IMG/VR virus record: IMGVR_UViG_3300042433_000068 | Span: 1 to 34,105 of that record | DNA from: a virus | Length of the DNA: 34,105 nt | Direction: 5' to 3' (one strand) | Shown here: positions 7,821 to 33,051 of the stretch, piece after piece | Layout: each line of letters starts with the position of its first letter | Position numbering within the stretch: position 1 is the first letter of the stretch | Notes under the pieces: model-generated | What the model was told of the DNA's origin: nothing | The model's database searches: none | Seen by the model: the letters and a program-made list of their open reading frames with translations, nothing else | Translations under genes and position numbers: made by a program

Positions 7821-7840
7821 GGGCTGCTTCCCTTCCCCAT

Positions 7841-7875
7841 CGGTTTTCGGTAATGCTGATGCTGCTAGCAGAGGC
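7841..7875 (+). promoter_or_regulatory. candidate promoter for the head operon
   Basis: Just after the terminator, TTTTCGGTAATGCTGATGCT leads into GCTGCTAGCAGAGGC (7861-7875). The TGCTAG core resembles an extended -10 (TGnTAnnnT-like) and recurs in three other gaps of this window (9822, 10222, 13074). A promoter is expected here because transcription should stop just upstream. No clear -35 box is seen. Confidence 0.35.
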
Positions 7876-7910
7876 ACCCCGCTAACATTTTCTCAGATGG
7901 AGTTGAGCTC

Positions 7911-8159
7911 ATGGGCTTTGGTGGTGGTGGCGGGCAGCAGCAAGCGGCGCCGGCGGCGCAGCAGACGGCGATCGGCCCATATCCCGACGATAACGTTTCG
8001 CGCATGCCGACGGCCAACTCGGCGAACGCCCTGGCTGCAGCTCGCCGCAAGCGGGCTGAAGTCATCGCCCGGTCTGGTCGATCGTCAACCAAGCTCGCTG
8101 CCGCTTCGAACGCGGGAACCACGAGCTACACGAACAACTTCCTTGGCGGTACCAACTGA
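7911..8159 (+). CDS. small pre-portal phage protein
   Basis: An 82-residue low-complexity protein beginning MGFGGGGGQQQAAPAAQQ, rich in Gly, Ala, Gln and Ser, with a basic helix in the middle (AAARRKRAEVIARSG). It ends NNFLGGTN and its stop overlaps the portal ATG (TGATG). Short Gly/Gln/Pro-rich proteins directly before the portal are recurrent in podoviruses with this head module. The role is unknown, perhaps assembly of the portal or a minor virion component. Confidence 0.7.
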   Translation: MGFGGGGGQQQAAPAAQQTAIGPYPDDNVSRMPTANSANALAAARRKRAEVIARSGRSSTKLAAASNAGTTSYTNNFLGGTN

Positions 8160-14291: not shown

Positions 14292-17060
14292 ATGGCTGTA
14301 AAGGTCTATCAGCACGCCCTCAATGTCGGCGTCGCCGATGCTGACAAGCTGCACCGCGTCGACATTGCCCGCATGCGTCTCGCGGCTCAGAAGCAAACAA
14401 ACTGGATGGCGCACGCAACGGGCAAGGGGTTCTTGCGCCCTGGCTTCGAGGATATCGTCGCGTGCAAGGCCGACGGATCGAACGGCGCCGCCGGCATGGC
14501 GCTGCCGTTCTCTGCCGGCGTCGATGACAGTTTCATTCTCGACCTTTCCCCGAACGTGTTGCGCGTCCTCGATTGCGATACCGACACGCTGGTCACCCGG
14601 GCCGCGGTGACGTCGACCGTTGCGAGCGGCGACTTCTCTGCGGCGACCGGGTGGACGCTGGCGTCAACGTCGGGGCAAAGCTCGACCGTCTCAGGCGGCG
14701 AGCTGATCTTGCGAGCTCGCGCCCGGGGTGCAACCGCCTTGGCAAAGCAGCAGGTGACGACGTCGAGCACTGGTGTCGAGCATGCGCTTCGGATCGAGGT
14801 CTCGCGCGGCCCTGTCACCTTCCGCCTTGGCTCGACCGATGGCGGCGCCGAATACCTGCCCAACGGCGTCGAGACTGAGCTTAAGACCGGCTATCACTCG
14901 ATCGCGTTCACTCCGACCGGCTCTTACTGGGTGCAATTCTCCTCGAAGTCCCCGGTCGAGCGCCGCGTCAATAGCTGCACCGTCGAGGCCGCCGGCATTA
15001 TGGAGCTGCCGACGCCCTGGGATCTGGCGGCAATCAAGCGGATCAAGGTAGCTCAGTCGATCGACGTCATGTTCATGAGCTGCCTGGGCGTCAAGCCGCA
15101 GCGGATCGAGCGGCGCGGCGATACCTCTTGGAGCCTCGTCGACTATGCCCCCGACAACGGCCCGTTCCTCGTCGGCAAAACCTCGCTCGCCAAGCTGACG
15201 CCGTCCGTCGTCGAGGGAAATGGCACCCTGACGTCGGATATCCCGTTCTTCACGGCCGGCCATGTCGGGGCTCTGTTCAAGCTCTACCACGACGGGCAAG
15301 TCGTCGAGACGTACCTTGCTGGCGCAAACGAATTCACGCCGGCGATCGACGTCTCTGGTGTCAACGAGTCGAATTACAACGAGCGCGATTTTACCGTTGT
15401 CATTGCCGGCACCTGGGCGGGCACGCTGCGCACCCAGCGCACATTCGAAACCGAAGAGACTGGATATCATGACTTCCGCCGCGAAACCGCGACGGCGACG
15501 ATCGATATCACGGCCAACGCCACCTTCATCAACGATGACAACGAAGACAATTCGGTCGCGAAATATCGCGTTGGGTTTCGCAGCGGCGGATATACCTCGG
15601 GCGAAGCGCAGATCACCATCACCCATGATGGCGGCGGTGGTGAGGGGATTTGCCGCGTCGTCGGCTTCACTTCTGCGACACAAGTCAGCATCGAAGTTCT
15701 CACCCCGTTCAAGGGCAAGTTCGCCACAACCGAATGGCAGGAAGGCGCCTGGTCGAGCGTGCGCGGCTATCCTGCGGCGACGGCGCTCTTCGATGGCCGG
15801 CTGTGGTGGGAAGGGTCTGATGATATCTGGGCGTCCGTCTCTGACGGGTATGACGATATGGATCTGAACTATGACGCCGGCGGCGACGCAGCGGCGCTGG
15901 CCCGCTCGATCGCAGTGGGCGGCCGGAATGATGGCCGCTGGCTTCTGCCGCTTTCGTCGCTGATGCTCGGCACCGACGCCCGCGTCGCAAATGCTCGTGC
16001 ATCTTCCCTCGACGAGATCCTGACGCCTGACAATTTCGGCATCAAGTCGGCCGGCCGGATCGGCGCCGCGACCGTCACCCCCGTCGAGTTGGCCGACGAT
16101 CGCGCAATCTTTGTCGAGCGCGCTGGGACGGATCTCTTTGAAATCACCTGGTCGAGCGAGAAGGGGCGCTATGTCGTCAATCCCTTCTCGAAGCTCAATA
16201 CCGACCTTTTCATCAACGGCGTGCTGCAGCTCGACGTTCAGATCCTGCCGGATCAGCGGATATGGGCGGCGGTCGATGAGGCTGATGCCGTCATGGTGCT
16301 GATCGAGCCGACGCAGGAGGTCATTGCCTTCATTCCGATGGCGCTGAGCGATGGCGACTATATCGAATCGCTCGCCGTGGTTCCTGGCTTTGGGCAAGAT
16401 CGGCTGTACGTTCGCACCGCCCGGCAAGTCGGCGGGTTCACCGCGCGCCGGATCGAGAAGATGGCGCTCGATCGAGAGGCGAAGCCGGGCCCGATCTGCA
16501 AGGTCTGCGATAGCTTCGTCGAGTTCGGCGCCGGCGATGACACGATCAGCGTGCCGCACCTGATCGGCCGCACCGTGTATGGCTGGATGGACGGCGCCCC
16601 GATCACCGACCCGGCGATCACTGATCATGGCGCCGACAATGCGAAGGCGTTCGTCGTGCCGGGCTCTGGCATCGTCACGCTTCCCAGTGTGCCGACCGTG
16701 GGCGGGATCCTCGGGCTGCGCTACGTCGCCGATTTCCAGACGGCTCGCCTGTCCTACGGCGCGCCCGACGCCACGCCCATGCTGACAAACAAAGCCGTTG
16801 CCGGCGTGGGCGTGCTGCTCGCCGACTATTGCCGCTCGGGGGTCAAGTATGGCCCTGACTTCGACAATCTGCAGTCGCTGCCAATCTTGGGTGAGAACGG
16901 CGCCACGGCCGACGAGATTGTTATCGGGCCCGGCGTCGACGAAAGCATGATGAGCGGCGGCTTCCCTATCGGGCTCGACACTCGGCTATGCTTCCGCGCC
17001 ATGTCGCCAAAACCGTGCTCGATCCTCTCGATCGTGCTCGCCATCGAAACCTATGGCTGA
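14292..17060 (+). CDS. tail tubular protein B (nozzle, T7 gp12-like)
   Basis: A 922-residue protein forming the hexameric short-tail nozzle through which DNA is ejected. It begins with the characteristic segment in which the phage 'samples' are described (YQHALNVGVADADKLHRVDI, then LAAQKQTNWMAHATGKGFLRPG). It contains repeated beta-propeller-like blades and signatures such as GYPAATALFDGRLWWEGS (in related proteins 'gyP..v.ff..RL.faGt...p..v..S..gd..df'), followed by DGYDDMDLNYDAGGDAAA. It is longer than T7 gp12 (794). It is tightly linked to TTP-A, and its stop lies 8 nt inside the next gene. Confidence 0.9.
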   Translation: MAVKVYQHALNVGVADADKLHRVDIARMRLAAQKQTNWMAHATGKGFLRPGFEDIVACKADGSNGAAGMALPFSAGVDDSFILDLSPNVLRVLDCDTDTLVTRAAVTSTVASGDFSAATGWTLASTSGQSSTVSGGELILRARARGATALAKQQVTTSSTGVEHALRIEVSRGPVTFRLGSTDGGAEYLPNGVETELKTGYHSIAFTPTGSYWVQFSSKSPVERRVNSCTVEAAGIMELPTPWDLAAIKRIKVAQSIDVMFMSCLGVKPQRIERRGDTSWSLVDYAPDNGPFLVGKTSLAKLTPSVVEGNGTLTSDIPFFTAGHVGALFKLYHDGQVVETYLAGANEFTPAIDVSGVNESNYNERDFTVVIAGTWAGTLRTQRTFETEETGYHDFRRETATATIDITANATFINDDNEDNSVAKYRVGFRSGGYTSGEAQITITHDGGGGEGICRVVGFTSATQVSIEVLTPFKGKFATTEWQEGAWSSVRGYPAATALFDGRLWWEGSDDIWASVSDGYDDMDLNYDAGGDAAALARSIAVGGRNDGRWLLPLSSLMLGTDARVANARASSLDEILTPDNFGIKSAGRIGAATVTPVELADDRAIFVERAGTDLFEITWSSEKGRYVVNPFSKLNTDLFINGVLQLDVQILPDQRIWAAVDEADAVMVLIEPTQEVIAFIPMALSDGDYIESLAVVPGFGQDRLYVRTARQVGGFTARRIEKMALDREAKPGPICKVCDSFVEFGAGDDTISVPHLIGRTVYGWMDGAPITDPAITDHGADNAKAFVVPGSGIVTLPSVPTVGGILGLRYVADFQTARLSYGAPDATPMLTNKAVAGVGVLLADYCRSGVKYGPDFDNLQSLPILGENGATADEIVIGPGVDESMMSGGFPIGLDTRLCFRAMSPKPCSILSIVLAIETYG

Positions 17061-17481
17061 GCTGACGTTTCAGCCTATCGACTGCCGGGCGCTCTCCAAG
17101 CTTCTTGGGGGGCGCCTTGATTTTCCCGTCGTCGGGTATGCCGGCTATGAAGGCGGCGAACTTCGGGGGGTTGGCGGCCTCGCCTGGCACTTCGGCCGGT
17201 GCTGGCTCTTCTTGGGTGCCGTCGATATGGCCCACACTCACCCAGTGGTTGTGGTGCGGTGGGCTCGGCGCATGCTAAGAAAAGCGCAGCAGCTTGGTGA
17301 AGCGCAGGTTTATTGCTGGCGGGACGATCATCCGCGCTCAAGAAAGTTGCTCGAAACTGTCGGTTTTCAACTGATGGGCCTGGAAGATGTCACTCTCTTC
17401 GATGGCTCGATCGCGCAAAAGGAAGTGTGGCTGTGGCAGATCCCATCACCCTCGGAACCGTCGCCGTCGTCGGCGCCATAG
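17053..17481 (+). CDS. GNAT-like acetyltransferase-fold virion-region protein
   Basis: A 142-residue protein overlapping the nozzle gene by 8 nt. Residues 24-60 form a beta-hairpin (VVGYAGYEGGELRGVGGLAW, then RCWLFLGAVD), followed by a helix (MLRKAQQLGE) and RSRKLLETVGFQLMGLE at 95-111, the classical 'S..ll.k.GF' end of a GNAT fold. T7-like phages often carry a GNAT-type or gp13-like protein at this position among internal virion proteins. The acetyl-CoA loop (Q/RxxGxG/A) is not clearly present, so catalysis is uncertain and a structural role is possible. Its end overlaps the next gene by 49 nt. Confidence 0.65.
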   Translation: MAELTFQPIDCRALSKLLGGRLDFPVVGYAGYEGGELRGVGGLAWHFGRCWLFLGAVDMAHTHPVVVVRWARRMLRKAQQLGEAQVYCWRDDHPRSRKLLETVGFQLMGLEDVTLFDGSIAQKEVWLWQIPSPSEPSPSSAP

Positions 17482-17909
17482 CAGCGGCCGGCATCAGCGC
17501 GGCCGGCTCGATCTACGCCGGGCAGAAAAGCAGGGAATCGTCGCAGATCCTGGCGCTTCAAGAAGAGGCTCAGGGGCGCGAAGAATTTGCCGCGGCTCAG
17601 CGCGAAGCTTCAGAGCGGTCTCTTGAGGCAAAGCTGATCCAGTCCCGGCAGCAAGCGATCGCGGCGGCGTCTGGCGGCGGTGGCGGTGCCGACGCGCCAA
17701 CCATCGTCAACATCATGGGCAAGACGGCTCAGCGCGGGGCCTACGGCGTCGAGACTGCAATCTTCGGGGGCGAGTCTCGCCGGCGTGCCGCCTATATCTC
17801 GGCCGACGCCCGGCGCCGCACTGGCGAGAACAATTTCGTCGGCTCTCTCTTCACCGCCGGCGGCACGCTCGCCGGTGGCATCGGCGACTTCGCCCGCATG
17901 TCTGCTTAA
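17433..17909 (+). CDS. internal virion protein (T7 gp14-like)
   Basis: A 158-residue protein. GTG 17433 is chosen because AAGGA lies nine bases upstream; it overlaps the GNAT-like gene by 49 nt in another frame. The N-terminus is hydrophobic and Gly/Ala-rich (ITLGTVAVVGAIAAAGISAA), followed by a coiled coil (about residues 30-85, with QILALQEEAQGREEFAAAQR), a glycine run and a polar tail containing RGAYGVETAIFGGESRRRAA. Size and layout match the smallest T7 ejection protein, which inserts into the outer membrane when DNA enters. Assignment is from layout and gene order rather than motif. Confidence 0.72.
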   Translation: MADPITLGTVAVVGAIAAAGISAAGSIYAGQKSRESSQILALQEEAQGREEFAAAQREASERSLEAKLIQSRQQAIAAASGGGGGADAPTIVNIMGKTAQRGAYGVETAIFGGESRRRAAYISADARRRTGENNFVGSLFTAGGTLAGGIGDFARMSA

Positions 17910-17921: not shown

Positions 17922-20900
17922 ATGGCATCGCGTTTCAAAATCCCGGGCGCCGAAAGCGTTTCAGGCCCGGGCAATATGCGGCCCGTCAACGCCCTGGCCG
18001 TCGAAGACACGAGCGGCCTTGAGCGTGGTGTGCAGAACCTGGCGGCCGGCGTCGGTCGAGCGGCCGACTCCATGTTCGCAGTCAGCCAGAAGACGATCGA
18101 GCGGCAGAAGCTGGTCGACGCCACGGCGGCCGAAGCGCGATGGACGAAGGGCTCGATCGATATCGTCAACGAGTTCTCGAATGATGGCGATTACGCCACC
18201 ATGCCAGACCGGGTGAAGGCGAAGTCGAAGGCGCTATACGATGAAGTCGTCGGGATGATCCGCGACCCCGACGCCAAAGAGATCTTTGCGCTGCAGCTCG
18301 ACGCCAAGCGCGCCGGCCTCGATGACAATATCGGCGACTATGCGAACGGGCTTTCTCAGCAGGCCGACCGCGCGTCGTTTGTTACCTCCCTCGACGTCAA
18401 TGCCAGCCTGGCTTCAGATCCGTCGCTCGATGACGCCAGTCGCGCCAAGGTGCTCAATGACACGCTGCAGTCGATCGAGATCGCGCAAGAGACTGGCCTG
18501 ATCACCCCGCTCGAAGCGCAGGAATACAAGCGGCTGAAGATCGACGGCGCCCGCGAACAGCTCGCGATCAACCGGGTGAATCTCGATATTCAGATCGACC
18601 CGCTGCGCGTGCGTCGAGATCTCGGCATTGCCTCGGGCATGGGCGGCGGTGACATTGCCTCGTCGGCGATCGCGGTGAGTGGCGGCGTGCTCGATATCCC
18701 GCTCGACGTCGCCCGGGAAGCTGCGGCTGCACTTGGTGACGGCGCCCTGCCGTCGGATCCGGCGCTCGCCAAGGCCTATCTCAAAGACCCAGAAGTCAAC
18801 GCTCGATACGCCGCCATCGTCATGACTGAGCTGGCCGATCGGTACAATGGGGATCTGACCGCTGCGGTCATCGCCGCGGCGCCGGGTGGTGGACTTGCCA
18901 TTGCCGACGCCTGGGTTAAGAGCGGGCACAACGAGGCTATGTTGCCCGACAAGGTGCGCCAGCATTATCGCAAGGTAATGGAGCGCATGACGCCGGAAAG
19001 CGACCGGCCGGATCTGCCTGTTATCGCCGCTCCCGACGTCAACCTCGCCGATATCGAGGTCGCGGTGCTCGACCGCTTCGAGAAGCTGCAGACCGCATTC
19101 GGCGAACAGGTGCCGGTGATTTCTGGCTTCCGGGATCCCGATCGCAACGCTCAAGCCGGCGGGGCTCAGCGAAGCCAGCATATCGATCGCCGGGCGCTGG
19201 ATCTCGACGTCTCGAAGCTGTCGAAGGAAGAGCGGGTGCGCTTCATCGAAATGGCCTCGGCAATGGGCTTCACCGGGATTGGCGTGTACAAAAATACCGT
19301 GCACCTCGATACCGGCCCGCGTCGCTCGTGGGGGCCTGATCATTCCTCTGGATCCGTGCCGGCGTGGGCGGCCGACGCGATCGAGCGACACAACGCCGGG
19401 GCGATCATCGAGGTCCCGCCGACGCCGACCGGGCTCAACGAGCGATATGCCGGCCTGTCGTTCGATCAGCGGATCAAGCTCGACGCGGCTGCGCGTGCGG
19501 CCGGCGATCAGCAGAGGATGGATCTGAAAGCTGGCATTCAGGTCGCGGTCGACAATGCGCCGGCGGCGATCATGAACGGCGGGGCGTATTCCTCGGATCT
19601 CCCGACGGCCGACGACTTCGTTCAAGCCTACGGCGCCGCCGATGGTATCGAGCGTTACAAGTCGTTCTCGGCTGCCGTCGAGGTCGCCGAAACCGCCTAT
19701 GGCATGCGGACCATGAACGCGAACGATATCGCCGACGTCGTCGAGGCGGCCATGCCTACCTCAACCGGCGACATGGCGGCGATCGAGCAAAAGAAGTTTG
19801 ACGCTATCCAAGCGGCTGCGGCTGCCACGCTCGAAGCCCGCAACAAGGATCCGGTGAGCTACACCCAACAGGTCTTCCCGAACGTCAAGGCGGCCTGGGC
19901 CGACGTCTCGTCGCCTGAACTACTGGCGAATGCGATCACCGTCACGGCCGAAGCTCAGCGTGGCCTGGGCATTGAAACCCCGAAGCTCCTGCCGGCGGCT
20001 GTGGCAGATAGCGCGGCGAAGTCCTTCAACAATGCCGAGTTGCCAGAAGACGAACGGCTCGGCGCCATTATCAGCCTGGTCAGCGCCACAACCGACGATG
20101 CAAACCAGAAGCTGATTTTCGACCAGCTCGTCGCCGCCGGCGTGCCTTCCTTTGCGCAGGGAGCCTTTGCCGCCTATGAGCGGAACGATGGCACGAGCGC
20201 GGGGCTCAACCTCTTCCGTGCTGTGATGGTGGATCCCAGCAAGGTCGCGACTGCCCTGCCCAATGATGTCACGCCGAAGCAAATCGATCAGACCATTCTC
20301 GACGCGGTCTTTGCCGACAACGAGGTCGGAAACGTCATTCATCAGGTCGAGGGTGGAACGGCCGACAATGCGGCCCGGGCAGGGCTCGACGCCACGCTGC
20401 TCAGTCGCGCGGCTCAATGGCGCCTCCTCGACGGATCTGCGACCAATGCCGAAGACGCGGTCAAGAAGGCAACGCGGGATCTCTATGGTGATGTTCGCGT
20501 CGTGACGGGCAAGGGTTTCGGTGGCGGCGCCGGCGTCAAGATCGTGCTGCCGTCCGATGCCGACTCCGCGCCGCTGATGGATGGCTTCAACTCGCTCTTG
20601 CCAGAGGTCTCGGCGGCGGTGACCGCCAACCTCAACGCCGCCGCTGATCCTGGAATGGAACCCTGGCGCGCCAAGATCTACGCGCAAGGCCGGGACAACC
20701 GGGTGAGCACGATCCTGGATGAAGGCTACTTCACCGGCGACGCGCGCAACGGCTTTGTGTTCATCGATCCGAAGACCGGACAGGCAATCCCCGATCAGAA
20801 CGGCGACCCGCTGGTCTTCACTCAAGAGCGCGTTATGCAGGCGGCGGCCTCGACGGCTGCCGATCGAGCTGCAGCGCAGGCGCTTTCCACCGAAGCCGAT

Positions 20901-20951
20901 CCTCTGGCATCGGTCTCGATGGGCGTCCCGATAATGGAGAGTATGCAGTGA
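17922..20951 (+). CDS. large internal virion protein with M15-type peptidase domain and degenerate transglycosylase segment
   Basis: A 1009-residue protein in the ejection-protein slot. Residues about 283-352 (YLKDPEVNARYAAIV, RYNGDLTAAVIAAAPGGG, DAWVKSGHNE..LPDKVRQHYRKVM) follow the C-terminal half of soluble lytic transglycosylases, but AAYNAG has become AAAPGG and the catalytic-Glu half (ES...GLMQ) is absent. Residues about 370-485 form an M15A-like zinc peptidase: VISGFRDPDRNAQAGG, then SQHIDRRALD (His420, Asp427) and VHLD (His461) with SWGP after it. The rest is long helical sequence. It may open peptidoglycan during DNA entry. Its ATG lies 12 nt after the gp14-like stop, and its end overlaps the next ATG (ATG..TGA). 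Confidence 0.82.
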   Translation: MASRFKIPGAESVSGPGNMRPVNALAVEDTSGLERGVQNLAAGVGRAADSMFAVSQKTIERQKLVDATAAEARWTKGSIDIVNEFSNDGDYATMPDRVKAKSKALYDEVVGMIRDPDAKEIFALQLDAKRAGLDDNIGDYANGLSQQADRASFVTSLDVNASLASDPSLDDASRAKVLNDTLQSIEIAQETGLITPLEAQEYKRLKIDGAREQLAINRVNLDIQIDPLRVRRDLGIASGMGGGDIASSAIAVSGGVLDIPLDVAREAAAALGDGALPSDPALAKAYLKDPEVNARYAAIVMTELADRYNGDLTAAVIAAAPGGGLAIADAWVKSGHNEAMLPDKVRQHYRKVMERMTPESDRPDLPVIAAPDVNLADIEVAVLDRFEKLQTAFGEQVPVISGFRDPDRNAQAGGAQRSQHIDRRALDLDVSKLSKEERVRFIEMASAMGFTGIGVYKNTVHLDTGPRRSWGPDHSSGSVPAWAADAIERHNAGAIIEVPPTPTGLNERYAGLSFDQRIKLDAAARAAGDQQRMDLKAGIQVAVDNAPAAIMNGGAYSSDLPTADDFVQAYGAADGIERYKSFSAAVEVAETAYGMRTMNANDIADVVEAAMPTSTGDMAAIEQKKFDAIQAAAAATLEARNKDPVSYTQQVFPNVKAAWADVSSPELLANAITVTAEAQRGLGIETPKLLPAAVADSAAKSFNNAELPEDERLGAIISLVSATTDDANQKLIFDQLVAAGVPSFAQGAFAAYERNDGTSAGLNLFRAVMVDPSKVATALPNDVTPKQIDQTILDAVFADNEVGNVIHQVEGGTADNAARAGLDATLLSRAAQWRLLDGSATNAEDAVKKATRDLYGDVRVVTGKGFGGGAGVKIVLPSDADSAPLMDGFNSLLPEVSAAVTANLNAAADPGMEPWRAKIYAQGRDNRVSTILDEGYFTGDARNGFVFIDPKTGQAIPDQNGDPLVFTQERVMQAAASTAADRAAAQALSTEADPLASVSMGVPIMESMQ

Positions 20952-23900
20952 CCTTCGCGCCGAAACCCACTTACCGCACCTGGAATCGCGCCGAACAGGT
21001 AGGGCTCGCACTCGACGAGCCCTTCACTTTTTCGCAGGCGCTGGGCGAGAACTTCGCGCAAGGCATGATGGATAGCTTCGGGCTCGGCACCTTCCTCCGC
21101 GAAGTCACCACGCCCCCACTGCTCGACGAGGTCGCCCGGCGCGGTGAGCGGCCGGAAGACTATGCGGCCCGCCGCGAACGATTTGCCGCAAATGCCATCT
21201 CGAAAGAGACCTATGAGGCCTCCCCCAGCTTCCGCAAGGAAGTCCCCTGGGAACGCGGCATGACAGAGGAGCGCGCGGCGGCGCTGGCGGCCTTCGTCGA
21301 TCGCCGCAAGGTGCGTGAGCACTTCTCCCAGAAGCAGCCGATCGCCGCCTTCCTTGGGCAGATGGGCGGGCAGGCGCTGGATCCGGTGAACTATATCCCG
21401 GTGTTCGGGCAGGCATCGCATACCGCCGCGGTTGCAAAGTTCGGCTCGATCGGCGGCCGGCTGATGATTGGCGCCAGCGAAGCGGCGGTCAACACTGCGG
21501 CCTTCGGCGTCTTCACTGCCGGCCTGCGCGGCAAGATGGGCGATGATGTGAGCTTCGCCGCGATCACAAACGAGATTGCCATGTCGGCGCTGATCGGCGG
21601 CGTCTTCGGTACTGGCATCGGCCTGCTTGCTCGGGGCGGTGATGTGCGCAAGCGGATGGCTGAAGCCAAGCTGCGCGACGGGCTCGAAAGGATCGACACC
21701 CTGCAGCGGGCTCAGATCCCGCTCGGTGAGGCAGCGACGCGCCTGGCGCAAGATGGCGAAGTCAGGTTGAGCGCCAACAGTCAGACGATCATCGAGCGCA
21801 TGCGGGCCGAAGTTTCGCAGCGCGACGTCACCGGCCGGGCGCTCGAAACCGAAACCGCCGGCGTGACGAAGAGCAAGCCGGGCGAAGTCGTCATCAGCCC
21901 GTCGGGCTTCAAGGTCGAGGTTCGCCCCGAAGTCGTCGAACTCGATAGCCTGATCCCCGCCGCCGGCGCTCTGCAGGTGCGCAACCGCAACAGCAAGGCG
22001 AGCGCAATTCAGGTCGAGGAAATTGCGACGAAGCTGGATCCGGCGCGTCTCATGCCGAACGTCTCGGCGGATCAGGGCGCCCCGCTCGTCGGTGGCGACA
22101 ATATCGTCGACTCGGGCAACGGCCGGGTGATGGCAATCCGGCGCGCCTATGAGGCCTATCCCGACAAGGCCGAAGCCTACCGGCAAGCTCTCGTCGACGC
22201 CGGTTATCAGGTCGAGGGCATGCGCAACCCGGTCCTGGTGCAGCGCCGCGTTACCCCGCTCTCGGCCGACGCGCGGGCGCAATTCAATGCCGACGCCAAT
22301 ACGCCAAGCACGGCGCGCATGTCCGCGGTCGAGCTCGCCGATATGGATCGCGCTGCGCTGACCGATAGCGTGCTCGGGGAGCTGGATGATGCTCCGATCG
22401 CGGCGGCGTCCAATCGGCCGGCTGTGGCCCGCTTCCTTGCGAATTTGCCGCCAAACGAACGCGGTGCACTGGTCGACGAGGCGGGCAACCTGAGCGCCGA
22501 CGGTGTGCGGCGCCTCGAAAACGCTCTGGTGGCCTCCGCATATGGCGATGTCGACGCCGGCGTGCTGCGCCGTTTCGCCGAAGCGGTGGACGATAATACC
22601 CGGGCGATCGTCGGCGCCATGTCTGACGTTGCCGGCCGCTGGGCGAAGATGCGCCGGGCGGTGCGGTCGGGCGAGCTGGATCCTGAATTCGACATGACCG
22701 TCGAGCTCACCGATGCGCTGCGCATGCTCGGTGACTGGCGCGATCAGGCGGCGCGGGAGAAGCGCCCTGTCGGCGTCGTCATCAAAGAGGGCATGGCCCA
22801 AATGGATCTGCTCGGCGGGGAGCTCTCGCCGGAAGGGCAAATCTTCGTCCGCATGTTCTATAAGACCGATACTTTCACGGCTGCGACCGGGCGCGAAGCC
22901 CTGGCCGCGCGCCTTAATCGCGTGATGGATGCGACCTTCGACCTGGGCAAGCCCCAGCTCTTCGGCGCCGACGCCAACCCCTCAAAGACCGGAGTGCTCA
23001 AAAATGCGCTTGCCGACGATATCGAAGCCGACTTCTTCGCGCCTGATGGTGTTGAGCGAGGGGTTGAAACGTTCGGCCAAGGAGGAGAACGACCCCCGGC
23101 TCAAGCGGATAGCGCGGGAAATCGATCAGCGGCTGAAGCAGGACGTCCCGACACAGTAGCCGAACGGGTGAAGACGGCGGCCGACATGGTCGCCAGCCAG
23201 CCGGCACGCACCCTCGACGAGCTCTATGAGGTTGCGCCTGGTCATCAGAAGACGCTCGGCGAAGTCGGCTCTGAGCTCGGCGCCAAGTATGGCGCGGAGT
23301 GGAAAGATCCGGGGATCAAGAAAAAGGAAACCAGCGCGGAGAAGATGGCGCGCAAGCGGTACGATTCGACGCGCCGGCTTACCGACGTCGTGCGCGGCGG
23401 CTATGTGGTCAAGGATCCCGGGCAAGTCGATAGCATCATCGCGGATCTGGCGAAGCGGTTCAAAGTCGTCGACGAGGGCTGGCGCATTACCGCGGCCGGG
23501 TACTTCGATCGCAAGGCGATGGTGCAGTTTGACGACGGTACCATCGGCGAAGTGCAGTTCTGGCACCCTGACATGCTCTCGACCAAAGAGGGCAAGGGGC
23601 ATGATCTTTATGAGGAAATGCGCAAGCTGCCCGACGGGGATCCGAAATACCTGGATCTGCTCGATCAGCAGCGGGAGATCTATCTAGCCACACTCGACAA
23701 AGTCGGCGACGAATGGCTGCCGATCGTGTCTCAGTTGGCCGACGAGCTGGCCGCCATGTCGGGGCGCGCGACGCCCGGGAAGGCTGCGTCGAACTCGGCT
23801 TCGGTGAGCGGCGTGCCAGAGTCGATGACTTCTTCGAACCGAACGGCTTCCCAGCCGCCGCCTTCTGAGACGATCGCCCAAGCTGAGCTGCCCGATATGA

Positions 23901-24670
23901 TGGCCGGTCGGCCTTCCCAGTCGAAGAATGTTTCCATGCCCGCCAATGTAGGGCTTGGCGAAGCGGGGCGCAACACTGGGCCGACGCGCACGATCGAGGG
24001 GAAGCAAGTCACCTTCGACGATGAAATTCAGGCGGATCTCGACCAGCTTGGCCGGGACCTTCTGGCTGAAAACGGGGTGACTGCAGACGATGCGCTCGCC
24101 GGGATCTTCCCGCGCGGCATTCGCCTGGGGCGCTTCGAGGGAGAGGCGCGCCGGCTCCTGGAATCGATCGGCGAATATCTTGACCCGCCGGCGCGCAACC
24201 CCGGCGACTTGGCTCGGGCAGCGATGCAGCTTGGCGCCGGCACGCTCGACGAGATCAAGGGCCCGATGAGCGCCAAGCGCGTCGCCAGCTTCATCGACCC
24301 TGGCCGCCAATACGAATGGCTTACCGCCCGCCTCGATGATGCGCGCCGGTCTTCGCCGCCCTTCATCGAGCCCGAACAGCTCCCGCTCGACATGATGGAC
24401 CCGCCGCCGGATCCGCCGCCGGCGGGGCTGGTCGAGGCTGAAGCCCGAGTTGGCAAGGGCGAAGACCTCCGCGCCCTGGCCGAACAGTTCGGCGTCGACG
24501 AGGCTGGCAACTTCGTCGAGCAAGGCGATATCGACCGGCTCCGCGCTCAAGGCCGGCTGACGCCAGAAGATGAAGCGGCGATCAAGGCGGCCGACGATGA
24601 CTTCGAGCTGGCGTCGAGCTACGCCGACACCCTCAACGAGATTGCCGCCACCTGCGGCGTAAGGGGCTGA
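20948..24670 (+). CDS. giant internal/polyvalent protein: DdrB-like ParB domain plus RelA/SpoT-like nucleotidyltransferase domain
   Basis: A 1240-residue protein overlapping the previous gene by 4 nt. Residues 1-150 resemble ejection-protein N-termini; 160-230 contain two hydrophobic helices. Residues about 325-475 match the DdrB-like ParB domain of phage polyvalent proteins: ALQVRNRNSKASAIQVEEIA, GAPLVGGDNIVDSGNGRVMA, a PVLVQRRV strand and FNADANTPSTARMSAVELAD. After a low-complexity hinge (700-755), residues about 757-930 look like a RelA/SpoT-type nucleotidyltransferase: ARKRYDSTRRLTDVVRGGYV (Asp813), GYFDRKAMVQF, GEVQFWHPDM (Glu868) and KGHDLYEEMR (His885). The C-terminus is disordered, then helical. 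Probably packaged and injected, with domains acting in the new host; that is inference. Confidence 0.8.
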   Translation: MTFAPKPTYRTWNRAEQVGLALDEPFTFSQALGENFAQGMMDSFGLGTFLREVTTPPLLDEVARRGERPEDYAARRERFAANAISKETYEASPSFRKEVPWERGMTEERAAALAAFVDRRKVREHFSQKQPIAAFLGQMGGQALDPVNYIPVFGQASHTAAVAKFGSIGGRLMIGASEAAVNTAAFGVFTAGLRGKMGDDVSFAAITNEIAMSALIGGVFGTGIGLLARGGDVRKRMAEAKLRDGLERIDTLQRAQIPLGEAATRLAQDGEVRLSANSQTIIERMRAEVSQRDVTGRALETETAGVTKSKPGEVVISPSGFKVEVRPEVVELDSLIPAAGALQVRNRNSKASAIQVEEIATKLDPARLMPNVSADQGAPLVGGDNIVDSGNGRVMAIRRAYEAYPDKAEAYRQALVDAGYQVEGMRNPVLVQRRVTPLSADARAQFNADANTPSTARMSAVELADMDRAALTDSVLGELDDAPIAAASNRPAVARFLANLPPNERGALVDEAGNLSADGVRRLENALVASAYGDVDAGVLRRFAEAVDDNTRAIVGAMSDVAGRWAKMRRAVRSGELDPEFDMTVELTDALRMLGDWRDQAAREKRPVGVVIKEGMAQMDLLGGELSPEGQIFVRMFYKTDTFTAATGREALAARLNRVMDATFDLGKPQLFGADANPSKTGVLKNALADDIEADFFAPDGVERGVETFGQGGERPPAQADSAGNRSAAEAGRPDTVAERVKTAADMVASQPARTLDELYEVAPGHQKTLGEVGSELGAKYGAEWKDPGIKKKETSAEKMARKRYDSTRRLTDVVRGGYVVKDPGQVDSIIADLAKRFKVVDEGWRITAAGYFDRKAMVQFDDGTIGEVQFWHPDMLSTKEGKGHDLYEEMRKLPDGDPKYLDLLDQQREIYLATLDKVGDEWLPIVSQLADELAAMSGRATPGKAASNSASVSGVPESMTSSNRTASQPPPSETIAQAELPDMMAGRPSQSKNVSMPANVGLGEAGRNTGPTRTIEGKQVTFDDEIQADLDQLGRDLLAENGVTADDALAGIFPRGIRLGRFEGEARRLLESIGEYLDPPARNPGDLARAAMQLGAGTLDEIKGPMSAKRVASFIDPGRQYEWLTARLDDARRSSPPFIEPEQLPLDMMDPPPDPPPAGLVEAEARVGKGEDLRALAEQFGVDEAGNFVEQGDIDRLRAQGRLTPEDEAAIKAADDDFELASSYADTLNEIAATCGVRG
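23046..23159 (+). CDS. alternate-frame segment in the hinge of the polyvalent gene (small gene or ancestral C-terminus)
   Basis: In a different frame from the 1240-residue protein, ATG 23046 to TAG 23157-23159 encodes MVLSEGLKRSAKEENDPRLK then RIAREIDQRLKQDVPTQ, a well-formed charged helix. The main frame over the same bases is poor, low-complexity sequence (GVERGVETFGQGGERPPAQA). This suggests that the alternate frame was, or is, the coding one: either a tiny overlapping gene or the former C-terminus of the ParB-domain protein before fusion to the nucleotidyltransferase part. No dedicated ribosome site stands out. Confidence 0.28.
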   Translation: MVLSEGLKRSAKEENDPRLKRIAREIDQRLKQDVPTQ

Positions 24671-24672
24671 CC

Positions 24673-27267
24673 ATGTCCTATGTGATGGATGCGAACTGCA
24701 TGGCCGCGGCGACCGCTGCAGCCAAGGGGAAACTCTCGGGGCAAGACGTCGTCGACGCCTTCAACCGGATTGCGGCCGAAAAGGAACGGCTCGAAAAGTC
24801 GGGCTCGATGACTGGGTCGGCGGAACGCATGCGGCGCTTCGCAGCCGAAGAGGGGCAGCGCACAAAGATCGCGGCGGCAATGGCTCGCCGGCATGCGGCG
24901 CTCAATGCGATGGTGCGCGATAAGCTCGACACCACGATCGACGGCATGCTCGCCGCCGGCATGCGGCCTAGCCGGGCGCTGCTCGCTATCCTGGAAGGGA
25001 CGCAGCGCAACGTCGCCAATGGGCGCAAGTCGATCTCTGCCATGCGGCAAGCCTATGAGAAGCGATATCTCGGCTCGATGCTGGCTGAGATCCAGCGCGA
25101 TAAGCCGCACCTGGTCGCGGTGCTGCGGGATCCTCAACTCGACGCCGATATCATGATCGAAATGCACGAGCTGCGGAAAGGCGGAAGCCCGGGCTCGACC
25201 GGCAATAGCGACGCCAAATATCTCGCCGGCGTCTTCGCGAAACATGCTGAGCTCGCGCGCACCGACCTCAACAAGTTGGGCGCCTCGATCGGCAAGCTTG
25301 ACGGCTGGGCCGGCGTCCAGATGCACGACGATGTGAGAATGATCGCCGCCGGCAAAGATGCATGGGTCGGCACGGTGGCCGCTTATCTCGATACCGAACG
25401 GACCTTCCCCGAAGGCCTGACGCCTGGCGAAGCGGCCCGGGCGCTCGGCGATATCTATGACACCATCATCACTGGGTTTTCCAACAAGCCGACGCCGGCA
25501 AGCCAAGGCATGCGGGTGAACCCGGCGAACATGGCGAAGGCGCTGGGCAAGAGCCGGGTGCTGCACTTCAAAGACGCGAAGTCGGCGCTCGCCTATCGCG
25601 ACGCCTTCGGGTACGGCAACACCGTTTCGGGCATGTTCGAACACCTGCGCAACTCGGCGCGCGTCGCTTCGAATATGGAAGTGTTGGGACCGAACCCGGA
25701 AATCATGTTCGCCGCGATCGCCGACTCGCTGCAGCGCCGCGTCAAAGCCTCGTCGATGGCCGACGCGCAAAAGCAGAAAGAGATTCGCGCGCTCAACGTG
25801 CAAGCCGGCGTGCTGCGCCAAGGCCTCGACATTGCGATCGGCACCGCGGCCCGGCCGGTGAGCGTGACGGCGGCGAAGATCGGATCGAACATTCGGGCGG
25901 TCCAGTCTATGGCAAAGCTCGGCGGCGCCGTTATCTCGTCGCTCTCCGATACCATCACCACGGCGGCGGCGGCTCAGTTTCGCGGCGGCAATTTCTTCGT
26001 GAGCTTTGCGCAGCAGATCGGCGGGATCCTGCAGGGGCGGCCGAAGGGCGAAGCGGCAGAAATCGCAGCCATGATCTTCGAGGGCTTCGACGGGATCATC
26101 GGGCAGATCGTCAACCCGCAAGCTGCAAACGATGGCGTCGTCGGCGCGCTCGGCCGCACGCAAGAGCACTTCTTTCGCTTCACCGGCCTCACTTGGTGGA
26201 CGGACGTAAACCGCGGCATGGCCGGCCGAATGATCGCTGCCGAAATGGGCATGCGTTCGCACAGTGCTTACGCGGACCTCCCGCCGGCATATCGTCATGT
26301 CCTGGGCATGCATGGGATCGATGCGGCTCGCTGGGATATCGTTCGCCAGTCGCGGCTTCGGAACGTCAACGGCAAGGACTATGTAACGCCCGATCGGCTG
26401 GCCGAATTGCCCGACAATGCCTTCGCCCCACTGGTCGCTGATCGAATCGCTGCAGCCAAGGGAGATCCAGCGCGCATTGCCTCGGCGATCGCCGACGCCC
26501 GACGCGACGTCGAACTCTCGGTGCTCCGCTTCGTGGCCGATGAAACGAATTATGCCGTCATCAAAACCGACGCGAAAACCTCCCGATGGATGACGCAAGG
26601 CACGCGGCCGGGAACGACTATGGGCGAAGCCGCTCGCTTCATCATGCAGTTCAAAGGCTTCCCCCTGGCCTTCACCGATCGCGTGGTCGGGCGCGCCTTC
26701 CTCGGGCAGCGCGCCGACGCCTCTCTCGGCGAACGCGCCGCCCATATCGGCGCAATCCTCGCCGGCCTCACCCTCTCGGGGTATGCGTCGATGACGCTGA
26801 AAGACGTCATCAAGGGTTACTGGCCGCCGCGGGATCCCGGCGACCCGCGCACCTGGATCGCTGCAGCTCAGCAAGGCGGCGCCTGGGGTATCTACGGCGA
26901 CTTCCTCTTTTCGCAGACAAACCGCTTCGGCGGCGGCGTGCTGGAAACCCTCGCCGGCCCGACACTGGGATCTGTCTCGGATATCACTCAGACCGCGCTC
27001 GGCGCCCGCGACTTTGCGATCGATGTGGCGACCGGCGAAGAAGGGAAATTCTCTGGCGGCAAGGCGCTCTCGACGGTGCTGAGCAACACGCCATATGCCA
27101 ACGTCTTCTTCATCAAGCCGGCGCTCGATTATCTCTTCCTGAACTCATTGCGGGAAACCCTCTCCCCCGGGTATCTTCGTCGCCAGTCGCGCACGAGGCA
27201 GCGTGAATATGGGCAGGAAAGCTTCATGCCCACCGGCCCGACACTGCAGGGGGATCTTGCGCGATGA
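24673..27267 (+). CDS. large internal virion (DNA ejection) protein
   Basis: An 864-residue protein starting 2 nt after the polyvalent gene. It is mostly helical, with N-terminal MSYVMDANCMAAATAAAKGK, a long coiled region (about 30-200), and C-terminal hydrophobic stretches (AAHIGAILAGLTLSGYASMT at about 700, and around 820-845 before the basic end SPGYLRRQSRTRQREYGQES). The ending 'sLretLSPGYlrR...r.~~~~gQ.f' and the internal YWPPRDPGDPRTWIAAAQQG segment are familiar from memory as the terminal part of large podovirus internal proteins. It probably forms part of the ejection conduit across the envelope. No hydrolase motif is seen. Its end overlaps the tail-fibre start (ATGA). Confidence 0.78.
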   Translation: MSYVMDANCMAAATAAAKGKLSGQDVVDAFNRIAAEKERLEKSGSMTGSAERMRRFAAEEGQRTKIAAAMARRHAALNAMVRDKLDTTIDGMLAAGMRPSRALLAILEGTQRNVANGRKSISAMRQAYEKRYLGSMLAEIQRDKPHLVAVLRDPQLDADIMIEMHELRKGGSPGSTGNSDAKYLAGVFAKHAELARTDLNKLGASIGKLDGWAGVQMHDDVRMIAAGKDAWVGTVAAYLDTERTFPEGLTPGEAARALGDIYDTIITGFSNKPTPASQGMRVNPANMAKALGKSRVLHFKDAKSALAYRDAFGYGNTVSGMFEHLRNSARVASNMEVLGPNPEIMFAAIADSLQRRVKASSMADAQKQKEIRALNVQAGVLRQGLDIAIGTAARPVSVTAAKIGSNIRAVQSMAKLGGAVISSLSDTITTAAAAQFRGGNFFVSFAQQIGGILQGRPKGEAAEIAAMIFEGFDGIIGQIVNPQAANDGVVGALGRTQEHFFRFTGLTWWTDVNRGMAGRMIAAEMGMRSHSAYADLPPAYRHVLGMHGIDAARWDIVRQSRLRNVNGKDYVTPDRLAELPDNAFAPLVADRIAAAKGDPARIASAIADARRDVELSVLRFVADETNYAVIKTDAKTSRWMTQGTRPGTTMGEAARFIMQFKGFPLAFTDRVVGRAFLGQRADASLGERAAHIGAILAGLTLSGYASMTLKDVIKGYWPPRDPGDPRTWIAAAQQGGAWGIYGDFLFSQTNRFGGGVLETLAGPTLGSVSDITQTALGARDFAIDVATGEEGKFSGGKALSTVLSNTPYANVFFIKPALDYLFLNSLRETLSPGYLRRQSRTRQREYGQESFMPTGPTLQGDLAR

Positions 27268-29600: not shown

Positions 29601-30470
29601 ATGGCTGTAACGTTCGTTGAGGTCTATGACGCTGCTATCGCGGCGGGGCTAACGCCAGCGGCAGCTCAGGTGACCGCGGCTCAAGCCATGCTGGAAACAG
29701 GGTGGGGGAAGTCGGTCAAGGGCAACAACATCTTCGGCGTTAAGGCCGGAAGTTCGTGGACCGGCGAGCTGAGCGCCGTGCCGCCGGCGGTGATCGCAGC
29801 GCCTGGTCGGTCAAGGATCTATCGTTATCCACGGCGGCGCCCTAACGTCAATATCAACGTTGGCGCTGGCACCTGGGGCGCCGCCACTCTCGATATTCTT
29901 AACACGCCGGTCGGGGCGCCTAGCGGTTATCGTATTATTGGCGACACGACCACGCCGGCCAACGTCCTATTCAGTAAGGCGAACGGCTCCTTTTTCAATG
30001 TGGGTCCATGGGGTTCGCTCTATCTGAGCGGCATTCGGATGACGCTGACGGCCCCAAATTATTCGGCCTTTGCTACTGTCAGCGGCGAGCTAATCTTTGA
30101 CCGCTGTGACTTTGGACCATGCACTACTAATGGGTGGCATGTGCTCATGAATGTCGGCGGCCGGGTGAACTTCCAGACGGCCATTACAATTTCGGGTGGC
30201 GCTCTGGCGCATGTGCTTGGCCCTGGAAGCGTTCAGTGGGCTTACGGCATGACAGTGACCGTCACAGGAACGCCGGCCTTTGGTGACGCCCTAATCCAAG
30301 CGGAAGGCGCTGGCATTCGCCAACTTGCAGGCATTGTGTGGTCTGGGGCGGCGACTGGGAAGCGGTACTCAGCAATCCTCAACGGTGTCATTAATACGTC
30401 GGGCGGCGGCGCGTCGTTCATACCCGGTAGCGTTGCCGGAACAACCGCCACCGGCGGGCAGTACGGCTAA
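29601..30470 (+). CDS. chimeric gene: truncated FlgJ-type GH73 domain fused to a beta-helix tailspike end
   Basis: A 289-residue product; AAGGA precedes ATG 29601 at proper distance. Residues 5-55 are the start of a FlgJ-type N-acetylglucosaminidase (AAIAAGLTPAAAQVTAAQAM, LETGWGKS with the catalytic-type Glu32, GNNIFGVKAGSSWTG), but the rest of the enzyme is absent. Residues 56-68 come from a 39-nt inverted copy of the endolysin gene. From about residue 80 the protein is a tailspike beta-helix (NVNINVGAGTWGAATLDILN) ending in the familiar GTTATGGQYG. The tailspike part also lacks its usual head. It looks like a recombination product in which three pieces stay in frame. Glycosidase activity is unlikely; the spike part may still fold. 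Confidence 0.75.
   Translation: MAVTFVEVYDAAIAAGLTPAAAQVTAAQAMLETGWGKSVKGNNIFGVKAGSSWTGELSAVPPAVIAAPGRSRIYRYPRRRPNVNINVGAGTWGAATLDILNTPVGAPSGYRIIGDTTTPANVLFSKANGSFFNVGPWGSLYLSGIRMTLTAPNYSAFATVSGELIFDRCDFGPCTTNGWHVLMNVGGRVNFQTAITISGGALAHVLGPGSVQWAYGMTVTVTGTPAFGDALIQAEGAGIRQLAGIVWSGAATGKRYSAILNGVINTSGGGASFIPGSVAGTTATGGQYG
29765..29803 (+). repeat. 39-bp inverted repeat, copy 1 (in the chimeric spike gene)
   Basis: The 39 bases starting CGAGCTGAGCGCCGTG and ending GATCGCAGCGCC are the exact reverse complement of 33739-33777 in the endolysin gene. Identity stops abruptly on both sides. This copy marks the joint between the GH73 fragment and the tailspike sequence. Confidence 0.9.
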
Positions 30471-30486
30471 AAGAAAGTTGTAAAAT

Positions 30487-32550
30487 ATGGATGACGCCGA
30501 CCTTCAGATCCTGACTTACACCCTCCTTGGCGAAGCGCGGGGGGAGGGTGCCGAAGGCATGCTGGCGGTCGCGAACGTCATCGCCAACCGCGTCGACTCG
30601 CCGATCTACCCAGACGATCCGGTCGACGTCGTGCTGCAGGATCGGCAGTTCTCGACGAACAACGCCGGTGAGGGCGGCAATCAGGCGGCGACGCGCCGCG
30701 AAGTTCGCCCTGGCGACGCGCTATATGTCACGGCCGAACAGATTGTGCGGGCGGCGATCATTGACCGCACCGTGCCCGATATCACCGGCGGCGCGATCAA
30801 CTATCACGCAACCAATATCTCGCCGTACTGGGCGGCCAATGCCACAACGCGGTGGGGCACGGTCACCTATGGCAATCATATCTATTACGCTCGGCGCCCG
30901 GTGCCGCCGGCCGATATCCCGACGGTGCTCAGCTCACTCGACGTCAAGCGCGTGGCGCCAGTACCGCTCGACAAGAGCACGGCGCTGATCGCTCGCCGTG
31001 CCACCGCCACGGCTTCGCAGCGCGTCAAGGAAGCGACCGACCTGGTCGCGGCAAATGCCCGCTGGGCGGCGCTGGGCTTTGTCCCTGCCGGCAATCAGGG
31101 CGCCGGCGGCATGTCGATGACAAGCCGGCTCGGATCCCGCGAAGATTTCTCCGACTCGATCGCTGCGCCGCGCCTGGTTGACTACAAGGCGGCGCGCGAT
31201 GAGCTCTCCCTGACCGGACTGCTCGATAAGCGGATCTCACTCACTGCACCCAACCCGGCGCCGTCGGCGGCCGACGTCTCTCGGCAAGTCCTGGGCAATG
31301 GCGTGGCGACCGCCGACGTCGCACCGAAGGGGCCACAAGGTCGAGGCGGCAAGCGCGGAACTGCGCCGGCGCCCGTCGAGGTCACCGTCGCCAAGCCGAA
31401 GACTCGTGTCGGCGATAGCGGGCTGATCACCTATATCCGGCCGACGGTAAAGATCGGGCCCGATGGGCAGCCGATCATCGAGCCGACGCCGCCGCCGAAG
31501 CCGGCGATCACCGCAACCGCCACGGCAACCGGCTCGGCCAACAGCGTAAAGCTCAGCGCAACGACGCGCGTCATGCTGGCGAAGGCAACAGCCAGCTCGA
31601 AGGCAGGCGCCTCGGCCAATGTGCAGACTTCCGCAAATGTGGAGCGGACGTCGGTGCCGGCACTGCAGAAAACCGTCGAACAAATCAGCCGCGAAGCCGA
31701 CACGGCACGCCTCAACGGTTATCGCGAAATTCAGTCGATGGGCCCGAAGTCGCCGCCGGCAAAGCCTGTGGTTGTCTCTGGCGGTGCAACGGCAAGGGCT
31801 GGCGCTCAGATGGACGGCAAGGGCGCTGCCGTCATGCTCAATCAGGCGGCCGGAACGGTGGTTGCCGGCAAGGATCCGTCACGCTTGGCCGCACAGCCTG
31901 CCGGGCTTCCGCTGGCTGCCCCCGCACCTATCCCGCTGAAGGCGCCGGCGCCGCTGAAGTTCGCGCCGATCGTGCGCGCGGATCCGATCGGCAAGTTCCC
32001 CGACTTCTCGGAACTGTCGACGATGAAAACGACGTCGAGCAAGCCGATCGGCCCGATCGAGGGATTGCGCCTTGGGCTCGAAGCTGAGAAGCGGCGCCTG
32101 TCTGGGTTGCCGCCCCTTGAGCCGGATCTTCCTCGTCGGGATCCGCGCACTGCTGCCGCGCCGGCGCCGGCGAAAACCAAGCTCACCGCCGCGCCCGACG
32201 CGCCGGTGCCGCTGCCGCGCCCGGGCAAGGTCTCGACCGCAACCGTCGCGCCGCAACCCGTCGCCGGAAGCCCTGGCTCGATCGGCGCCAAGTCGCCGAC
32301 AACCAAGAAGCTCGCCGACGCACCGAAGAGCCAACCGATCGATATCACCGTGCGCGGTGGTGCGGTGGCGCCGCGCTATGTGCCGCCTCGTCGCCCTGAC
32401 ACGACTGGCCCGCAAGTCTTCGACGCCTCGAAGAACTCACTGGCGCCAGTGACGTCGACGGCTGCGCAGGAGTCGGCATTCCAGTGGACAACGAACACCG
32501 GCCTACCGTCGGCGGTTGGGAACTCGACGCGCTGGCAAACTGGGTACTAG
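30487..32550 (+). CDS. SleB-type cell wall hydrolase with long disordered tail
   Basis: A 687-residue protein. Residues 8-137 match the SleB/Hydrolase_2 family, which cleaves the peptidoglycan glycan strand: LTYTLLGEARGEGAEGMLAV (Glu16 the expected catalytic residue), AVANVIANRVDSPIYPDDPV, VVLQDRQFS, DITGGAINYHATN and GNHIYYARR. From about 280 the protein is Pro/Ala/Lys-rich and probably disordered or rod-like (for example PTPPPKPAITATATATGSAN), ending in a short ordered segment. There is no signal peptide. Placed with the tail genes and far longer than free endolysins, it is more likely a virion-associated wall hydrolase, although a lysis role is possible. The ribosome site is weak. Its stop overlaps the antisense HNH gene end by 4 nt. 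Confidence 0.82.
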   Translation: MDDADLQILTYTLLGEARGEGAEGMLAVANVIANRVDSPIYPDDPVDVVLQDRQFSTNNAGEGGNQAATRREVRPGDALYVTAEQIVRAAIIDRTVPDITGGAINYHATNISPYWAANATTRWGTVTYGNHIYYARRPVPPADIPTVLSSLDVKRVAPVPLDKSTALIARRATATASQRVKEATDLVAANARWAALGFVPAGNQGAGGMSMTSRLGSREDFSDSIAAPRLVDYKAARDELSLTGLLDKRISLTAPNPAPSAADVSRQVLGNGVATADVAPKGPQGRGGKRGTAPAPVEVTVAKPKTRVGDSGLITYIRPTVKIGPDGQPIIEPTPPPKPAITATATATGSANSVKLSATTRVMLAKATASSKAGASANVQTSANVERTSVPALQKTVEQISREADTARLNGYREIQSMGPKSPPAKPVVVSGGATARAGAQMDGKGAAVMLNQAAGTVVAGKDPSRLAAQPAGLPLAAPAPIPLKAPAPLKFAPIVRADPIGKFPDFSELSTMKTTSSKPIGPIEGLRLGLEAEKRRLSGLPPLEPDLPRRDPRTAAAPAPAKTKLTAAPDAPVPLPRPGKVSTATVAPQPVAGSPGSIGAKSPTTKKLADAPKSQPIDITVRGGAVAPRYVPPRRPDTTGPQVFDASKNSLAPVTSTAAQESAFQWTTNTGLPSAVGNSTRWQTGY

Positions 32551-32999
32551 GCGACGCTCTTCCATGAGCGACCGGCAATCAAGCGTTGGATGCATGCCTC
32601 CTTTACGTCGAGGCGTTTGGCGATATCTGACTGCTTGATGCCGCCGGCGGCATACTCTTCGCGGATCTTGCGCACCAGCTCTGGCGTGAGCTTTGACCTG
32701 CCCCTGCCCTTGCTATGCATGTCGATCGTGTTCGCCTGAGCTGAACCCAAAAACAGATGGTCCAAGTTTACGCATGGCGGATTATCGCAGCGATGAAGTA
32801 GGTTCATGCCTGGCGGGATAGGGCCCTTTTCCGCCTCCCATATCACTCGGGTTGCTGCCGCTAATTTCGAGTTGTCATCGCGGATCCGTCCGTACTGCTT
32901 GCGATCCCTCGCCCCCATCCAAGGCCAGCATTCCCCTTGTGCCGTTTTTTGGTAATATGCCTTCGCGCGTTCTGCCGCTGGTATCCGTTTCCGTCCCAT
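32547..32999 (-). CDS. HNH endonuclease with C-terminal helix-turn-helix, mobile
   Basis: A 150-residue protein and the only convincing minus-strand gene. The HNH core is NLLHRCDNPPCVNLDHLFLG (His69, Cys71, Cys76, His81), followed by SAQANTIDMHSKGR, the common 'g....N..D...kgR' motif of free-standing phage homing-type HNH nucleases. Residues 103-148 (SKLTPELVRKIREEYAAGGI, KQSDIAKRLDV...IQRLIAGRSWK) form a DNA-binding helix-turn-helix. GGAGG lies about 8 nt upstream of its ATG on the minus strand. It probably invaded the gap between the SleB and endolysin genes. It faces the SleB gene and their ends overlap by 4 nt. Confidence 0.9.
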   Translation of the reverse strand: MGRKRIPAAERAKAYYQKTAQGECWPWMGARDRKQYGRIRDDNSKLAAATRVIWEAEKGPIPPGMNLLHRCDNPPCVNLDHLFLGSAQANTIDMHSKGRGRSKLTPELVRKIREEYAAGGIKQSDIAKRLDVKEACIQRLIAGRSWKSVA

Positions 33000-33051
33000 T
33001 TAACCGCCTCCGCTTGGTGGCTTTTACATACACTTGAAAGGGCCTAAAAGC

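Follow-up and report, generated by a model that had tools for sequence, protein, structure and literature searches.

The window, that is, the whole stretch of DNA analysed here, is a virus record of 34,105 bases. An ORF encoding a protein of 1240 residues was found at positions 20948..24670 on the plus strand. It begins with a GTG codon, which shares four bases with the stop codon of the upstream gene (GTGA), so the two genes are coupled. The upstream gene (17922..20951, +) lies in the gp15 position, and its product has an M15 peptidase domain. The downstream gene (24673..27267, +) encodes a virion structural protein of phrog_684, whose homologues in Pelagibacter phages are annotated as putative internal virion proteins; a profile of this protein had no match in the PDB. 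Further upstream on the same strand are genes for an internal virion protein (phrog_418, 17313..17909) and a tail protein (phrog_376, 14292..17060). The annotations of Uetakevirus phiV10 and Pseudomonas phage Tr60_Ab31 give the ejection-module genes in the same order. Elsewhere in the window, a C-5 cytosine DNA methylase domain (PF00145, E 7e-39) is encoded at 2923-4107 beside the terminase genes, and three separate cell-wall enzymes (glucosaminidase-like, Hydrolase_2 and a GH108 endolysin) are encoded downstream of a tail-fibre-like gene, at 29601-33876.

In the initial annotation, the 1240-residue protein was described as a polyvalent protein in an ejection slot, with a ParB pattern at about residues 325-475 and a RelA/SpoT-like part. 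When the ORF was translated, every quoted motif was present where it had been placed: VDSGNGRVMA at residue 387, ANTPSTARMSAVELAD at residue 450, LTDVVRGGYV at residue 811 (with Asp813), GYFDRK at residue 851, GEVQF at residue 867 (with Glu868), and GHDLYEEMR at residue 884. The ParB pattern was recovered as a ddrB-ParB domain (PF18763, E 2.9e-32) at residues 320-434 (21905..22249, +), with the VDSGNGR motif at residues 387-393; this was the sole match of the protein in a Pfam scan. Similarity to relatives continues past this domain to about residue 730. The RSH (RelA/SpoT-type synthetase) domain, assigned by sequence and fold matches, occupies residues 746-929 (23183..23734, +). It is followed by an AGRPSQ motif at residues 986-991 (23903..23920, +) and by a C-terminal tail at residues 1145-1238 (24380..24661, +), which is common to relatives with other cargo. 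As in other polyvalent proteins, several domains including the typical ddrB-ParB domain are combined in one chain whose gene lies beside late structural genes.

The N-terminal scaffold (residues 7-290; 20966..21817, +) matches the T7 gp16 family. The first 300 residues match positions 216-416 of the phrog_342 profile (internal virion protein with endolysin domain; E 3e-13), and this match was obtained for all 10 sequences tested, namely the window protein and nine relatives. T7 gp16 itself aligns nearly end to end with the profile. Thus, the match of the window protein covers approximately the first putative membrane segment of gp16, TMH I, at residues 243-410 (PMC8954989). According to the model in the same study, gp16 spans the periplasm, the membrane and the cytoplasm, and the part C-terminal to TMH I reaches the cytoplasm. 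A profile of the N-terminal scaffold had no match among the PDB sequences, and a structural model of the scaffold together with the ParB domain (pTM 0.43, which is low) gave no significant PDB fold, the top match being a ParB-N domain (E 0.13). Seven RSH-bearing ejection loci are covered on their downstream side (the window, L137, L139, L163, L170, L171 and L173), and in each of them a phrog_684 homologue follows the gene. The protein thus combines a gp16-family sequence match with synteny with ejection and tail genes. The proposed ejection slot, between the gene in the gp15 position and the phrog_684 gene, is supported by the N-terminus, the synteny and the swapping of cargo described below.

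The RSH domain escaped the curated RelA/SpoT models, neither Pfam (to E=10) nor NCBIfam (to E=1) giving a match with the whole protein or its sub-segments. It is therefore a divergent domain, placed by its fold and its homology to Tas1. A phmmer search of the PDB sequences found Tas1, the T6SS (p)ppApp synthetase, over residues 751-883 (E about 1e-6), and with a profile of four family members, Tas1 (1.3e-9) and SaEAS, an exported synthetase (0.0018), were the only RSH chains found. An AlphaFold2 model of residues 741-939, built with 29 sequences in the alignment, had a pLDDT of 96.3 and a pTM of 0.90. In a Foldseek search of the PDB with this model, Tas1 (6ox6) and SaEAS (8vx3) ranked first, followed by SAS1/RelQ, RelP, Rel, SpoT and RelA, and all 48 matches at E<=1e-3 are RSH enzymes. 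The similarity is well beyond chance, and the model supports a SYNTH-domain fold of the RSH synthetase superfamily for residues 741-939. The initial annotation had predicted a RelA/SpoT fold for residues 757-930 or so and had named an unrelated fold as its refutation; the prediction holds in the model.

The catalytic residues are also in place. Residues K791, D813, R816, G851, Y852, D854, E868, K880, Y888 and Y912 are invariant in the 29-sequence alignment, and Q870, K856, K799 and H885 are nearly so. In the HMMER alignment with Tas1, Lys791 (23318..23320, +) corresponds to Lys305, the invariant pair Asp813 and Arg816 (D..R, 23384..23395, +) to D327 and R330, and Glu868 and Gln870 of the Glu-Val-Gln triplet (23549..23557, +) to E382 and Q384; Gly851 and Tyr852 correspond to G365 and Y366. 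Asp813 and Glu868, whose lack of conservation the initial annotation had named as its other refutation, are thus conserved throughout and aligned with active-site residues of Tas1. R330, E382 and N370 are named ATP-site residues of Tas1, and the D121A mutant of SaEAS was reported to be inactive (PMC12691689); D121 is the counterpart of Tas1 D327, as judged from its spacing to the Arg. No equivalent of the lysine that contacts ATP in Tas1 and SaEAS (K353/K154) is conserved among the phage sequences in this alignment. The Asp, Arg, Glu and Gln positions of the RSH superfamily are all present (D813, R816, E868 and Q870). Thus, the catalytic set is present, and the informative change lies in the syn3 motif.

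The syn3 motif of the window protein is GYFDRK (residues 851-856; 23498..23515, +), a DxK type with Lys856 in the place of Tas1 Asn370. GxN has been associated with (p)ppApp synthetases and SxH with (p)ppGpp synthetases (PMC12226406). The window protein has neither the GxN of Apk1 and Apk2 nor the SxH of the canonical RSH and SAS enzymes, and a plain (p)ppGpp or (p)ppApp label was rejected for this reason. The Vibrionaceae homologues carry GYRDLK, and VpEAS, which was described from that group, makes pppGpp (PMC12691689). As a matter of judgement, a guanine nucleotide has close to an even chance of being the acceptor, and an adenine nucleotide may also be considered, with roughly a one-in-three expectation; tRNA comes a distant third. 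Between the window and locus L162, the dN/dS of the RSH domain is about 0.35, which is consistent with purifying selection. In the RSH domain fused to a portal protein in L174 (5995-6543), GYFDRA and GEVL replace GYFDRK and GEVQ, so the domain may be inactive there.

How widespread is this RSH family? Scans of viral contigs with a single sequence, either the RSH domain or the whole protein, gave no match, and no convincing RSH relative came up among named phages in tblastn; the family emerged only when alignments were used as queries. The starting point was a set of Photobacterium RSH proteins detected by tblastn (E 8e-10), whose N-termini are signal-like. From an alignment built on them, the search reached loci of Rhodoblastus acidophilus, a Rhodoplanes MAG and Salipiger marinus (41-43% identity over the RSH domain, 43-47% in the best segments), and an alignment of these alphaproteobacterial loci led to 14 viral contigs. 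The phage copies share 34-56% identity with the window, while the nearest non-phage homologues found, from Photobacterium and Vibrio, share 22-26% over the domain. In the tree, the Vibrionaceae proteins and the phage copies are split with full support; the grouping follows the carrier class, with weak inner branches. The family is rare, since only 3 of the 385 genomes from the class of Salipiger marinus (L139) had a match at E<=1e-10, the Salipiger genome itself included. More viral proteins of over 1000 residues with an RSH fold were found in BFVD, and one of them is named DdrB-like domain-containing protein. Thus, the DdrB/RSH combination already exists in public data.

The carriers are diverse. 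Ejection proteins combine the RSH domain with ddrB-ParB in the window, L162, L163, L139/L167 and L175, and with another ParB-like region (assigned from phrog_10691 and by reading, not by Pfam) in L170, L171 and L173, while the ejection-slot protein of L137/L164 has no ParB. In L175, a ParB-like segment of the LLDGNSTFGVA type (by reading) is apparently inserted in the N-terminal part of the RSH domain (6001-6660). Portal proteins carry the RSH domain in L138 and L174 (PF04860) and in L168 (Portal_Mu), and a MuF-like protein, recognised by reading only, carries it in L166. It stands alone in L165 and L169 and lies inside a polyvalent protein of 2481 residues in L172. The portal and MuF-like fusions suggest that attachment to virion proteins is the common denominator of the family. 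In every RSH-bearing ejection protein whose 3′ part is covered (the window, L162, L163, L137/L164, L139/L167, L170, L171 and L173), a Ser/Thr-rich linker leads to an AGRxSQ motif, mostly AGRPSQS, located 111-127 residues past the catalytic Glu. The 34 scaffold relatives lacking RSH do not have it, and neither do the carriers of the portal, MuF-like and solo types. The motif could be a processing or binding site.

The slot exchanges its cargo. The N-terminal scaffold and the last 95 residues or so are kept in 34 related loci; none of them has an RSH domain, and nearly all lack the ParB part. Their cargo is of other or unrecognised kinds, including ADP-ribosyltransferases; ART-PolyVal domains were recognised in L005 (slightly below the curated cut-off), L006, L020 and L026. 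The nearest relative without RSH, L022, matches the window protein at about 50% identity over the whole N-terminal part, ParB region included, as far as about residue 740. Beyond this point, the place of RSH is taken by a pair of ART-PolyVal domains along with an apparent HExxH motif, and the same tail follows. Scaffold, ParB and RSH are retained together in L162 and L175. The slot is thus fixed, and the RSH domain is one among several cartridges that it takes.

Some of these features have precedents. Iyer et al. (2017, PMC5512222) found RelA/SpoT domains in long multidomain proteins encoded by late genes of phages, together with DdrB-ParB in Helicobacter prophages, reported independent acquisitions in (pro)phages of Spirochaetes and epsilonproteobacteria, and proposed packaging into the virion and alarmone action; phage P1 DdrB goes into the head (PMC5512222). 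The window protein resembles these proteins in its late-gene, multidomain setting and in having RelA/SpoT beside DdrB-ParB, but differs in the gp16-like podophage ejection scaffold, the exchangeable cargo and an RSH family shared with portal and MuF-like fusions. Assays have been reported for (p)ppApp synthetases that temperate phages carry as MuF fusions (PMC12226406). Apk2 and the MuF-RelA_SpoT toxins (PMC12226406, PMC5576092) likewise bear an RSH domain on a phage head protein thought to be injected, and L166 is a MuF-like relative; in contrast, the window protein has an ejection-protein carrier, a gp16-type scaffold instead of MuF, and DxK instead of GxN. No iapK/aph1 immunity gene was recognised and no hydrolase domain was found in the ORFs scanned, the next gene being that of phrog_684.

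Tas1/Apk1 (PDB 6ox6) is the best match in both structure and sequence, and the positions of its Lys305, Asp327, Arg330, Glu382 and Gln384 are kept. However, the identity in the structural alignment is 22%, Asn370 is replaced by Lys856, and the carrier is a virion scaffold and not PAAR/T6SS. The Photobacterium/Vibrio proteins have signal peptides and share G-Y-x-D-x-K; they were assigned to the exported synthetases of the RelV/VpEAS type (PMC12691689) from genus, signal-like N-terminus and layout, and not via the VP1295 or VC1224 sequences. Members of this type are small, Sec-exported, single-domain proteins without a virion link, whereas the RSH domain of the window protein is internal (residues 746-929 of 1240). 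T7 gp16 (PMC8954989) shares the scaffold family and the gene order of the ejection module. It has a lytic transglycosylase and a DNA-binding C-terminal part, whereas the window protein has ParB and RSH after the first membrane segment and its next structural part is a separate gene.

The RSH fold, the catalytic residues, the ejection-gene context and the exchange of cargo in the slot are shown by this analysis. The window protein is probably a virion-delivered nucleotide 3′-pyrophosphokinase that uses a podophage ejection protein as its delivery chassis. For its packaging, injection, catalysis, acceptor and purpose, I infer the following course. The N-terminal scaffold would be packed in the capsid core and enter the host envelope, a few copies being injected along with the genome. 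Next, the RSH part and the ddrB-ParB part, a DNA binder or nuclease, would face or enter the cytoplasm. There, ParB may act on the DNA, a role suggested for DdrB (PMC5512222). The RSH part would transfer pyrophosphate from ATP to the 3′-OH of its acceptor, for which a guanine or adenine nucleotide is the likeliest candidate. Either an alarmone product or a drain on ATP and GTP could slow the host as infection starts; alternatively, a nucleotide-dependent defence might be starved. Points against this explanation are the Lys at the syn3 position, where proven ppApp and canonical ppGpp enzymes have Asn or His, the absence of a conserved ATP-contact lysine, and the low pTM of the scaffold and ParB model with its lack of a significant PDB match. 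Another is the copy number: about three copies are annotated for T7 gp16, and if the same applies here, a slow enzyme would achieve little. In addition, no virion-borne RSH with a demonstrated infection phenotype was found in the literature searched.

Might the enzyme act on another substrate or in another cell? As a toxSAS, it would pyrophosphorylate the 3′-CCA end of tRNA and halt translation instead of making free alarmones. RSH-fold enzymes with this activity exist, such as FaRel2 (PMC11559606), and the phage syn3 is neither of the ppApp nor of the canonical ppGpp type. However, enzymes with nucleotide acceptors (Tas1, SaEAS, SAS1 and RelP) lead both the profile and the fold searches, and no tRNA-acceptor toxSAS is among the matches listed, which makes this reading improbable. 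A role without injection is also unlikely; the RSH domain would then work inside the cell that makes the phage or harbours it as a lysogen, for instance to counter rival phages or to switch growth. The L137 and L139 relatives in bacterial genomes do adjoin virion genes and are probably prophages, and RSH toxins such as CapRel serve in anti-phage systems too (PMC12691689). Yet the domain is fused within a scaffold shared with an internal-virion-protein family and encoded among late structural genes, it is swapped with ADP-ribosyltransferases, portal and MuF-like proteins bear its relatives, and no adjoining immunity gene was recognised.

A catalytically dead fold serving as a structural or nucleotide-binding module would suit a carrier that is itself a structural protein, and the divergent L174 copy has lost the Gln of GEVQ and the Lys of GYFDRK. 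This is very unlikely, since no copy departs from the catalytic Lys, Asp, Arg and Glu, while the phage copies are 34-56% identical to the window overall, and the comparison with L162 indicates purifying selection. An enzyme delivered by the virion is still the preferred reading.

More tentatively, and with somewhat less than even confidence, the podophage ejection apparatus could be regarded as a general effector-delivery device. As the genome enters the cell, a gp16-derived membrane scaffold would bring exchangeable enzyme cartridges to the cytoplasm, be it an alarmone synthetase, ADP-ribosyltransferases, ParB or domains not yet described, and the DxK-type virion-borne RSH family common to podophage ejection, portal and MuF-like carriers would have an acceptor specificity of its own. 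With regard to the literature searched, three things are new: a gp16-like chassis for ejection whose cargo can be shown to change, a DxK family uniting the three carriers, and the AGRPSQ motif that follows the RSH domain. Toxic or exported alarmone synthetases on the one hand and podophage ejection proteins on the other have been studied separately, and the two fields are joined here. The results suggest that ejection proteins, usually seen as DNA conduits, also deliver enzymes, which the residues and relatives named here make testable. If this is true, a starvation-like signal or a drain on nucleotides would reach the host of some phages ahead of any phage gene expression.

Other cargo was noticed in the slot. 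The slot proteins of L004/L052, L011/L023 and L012/L050 have in common a segment around SLMQFLA...GLSRKF(I/V)PG without a Pfam match, which may be an undescribed injected domain. In L011, an HNH/AP2-like ORF (7432-7998, by reading) lies between the slot gene and the phrog_684-like gene.
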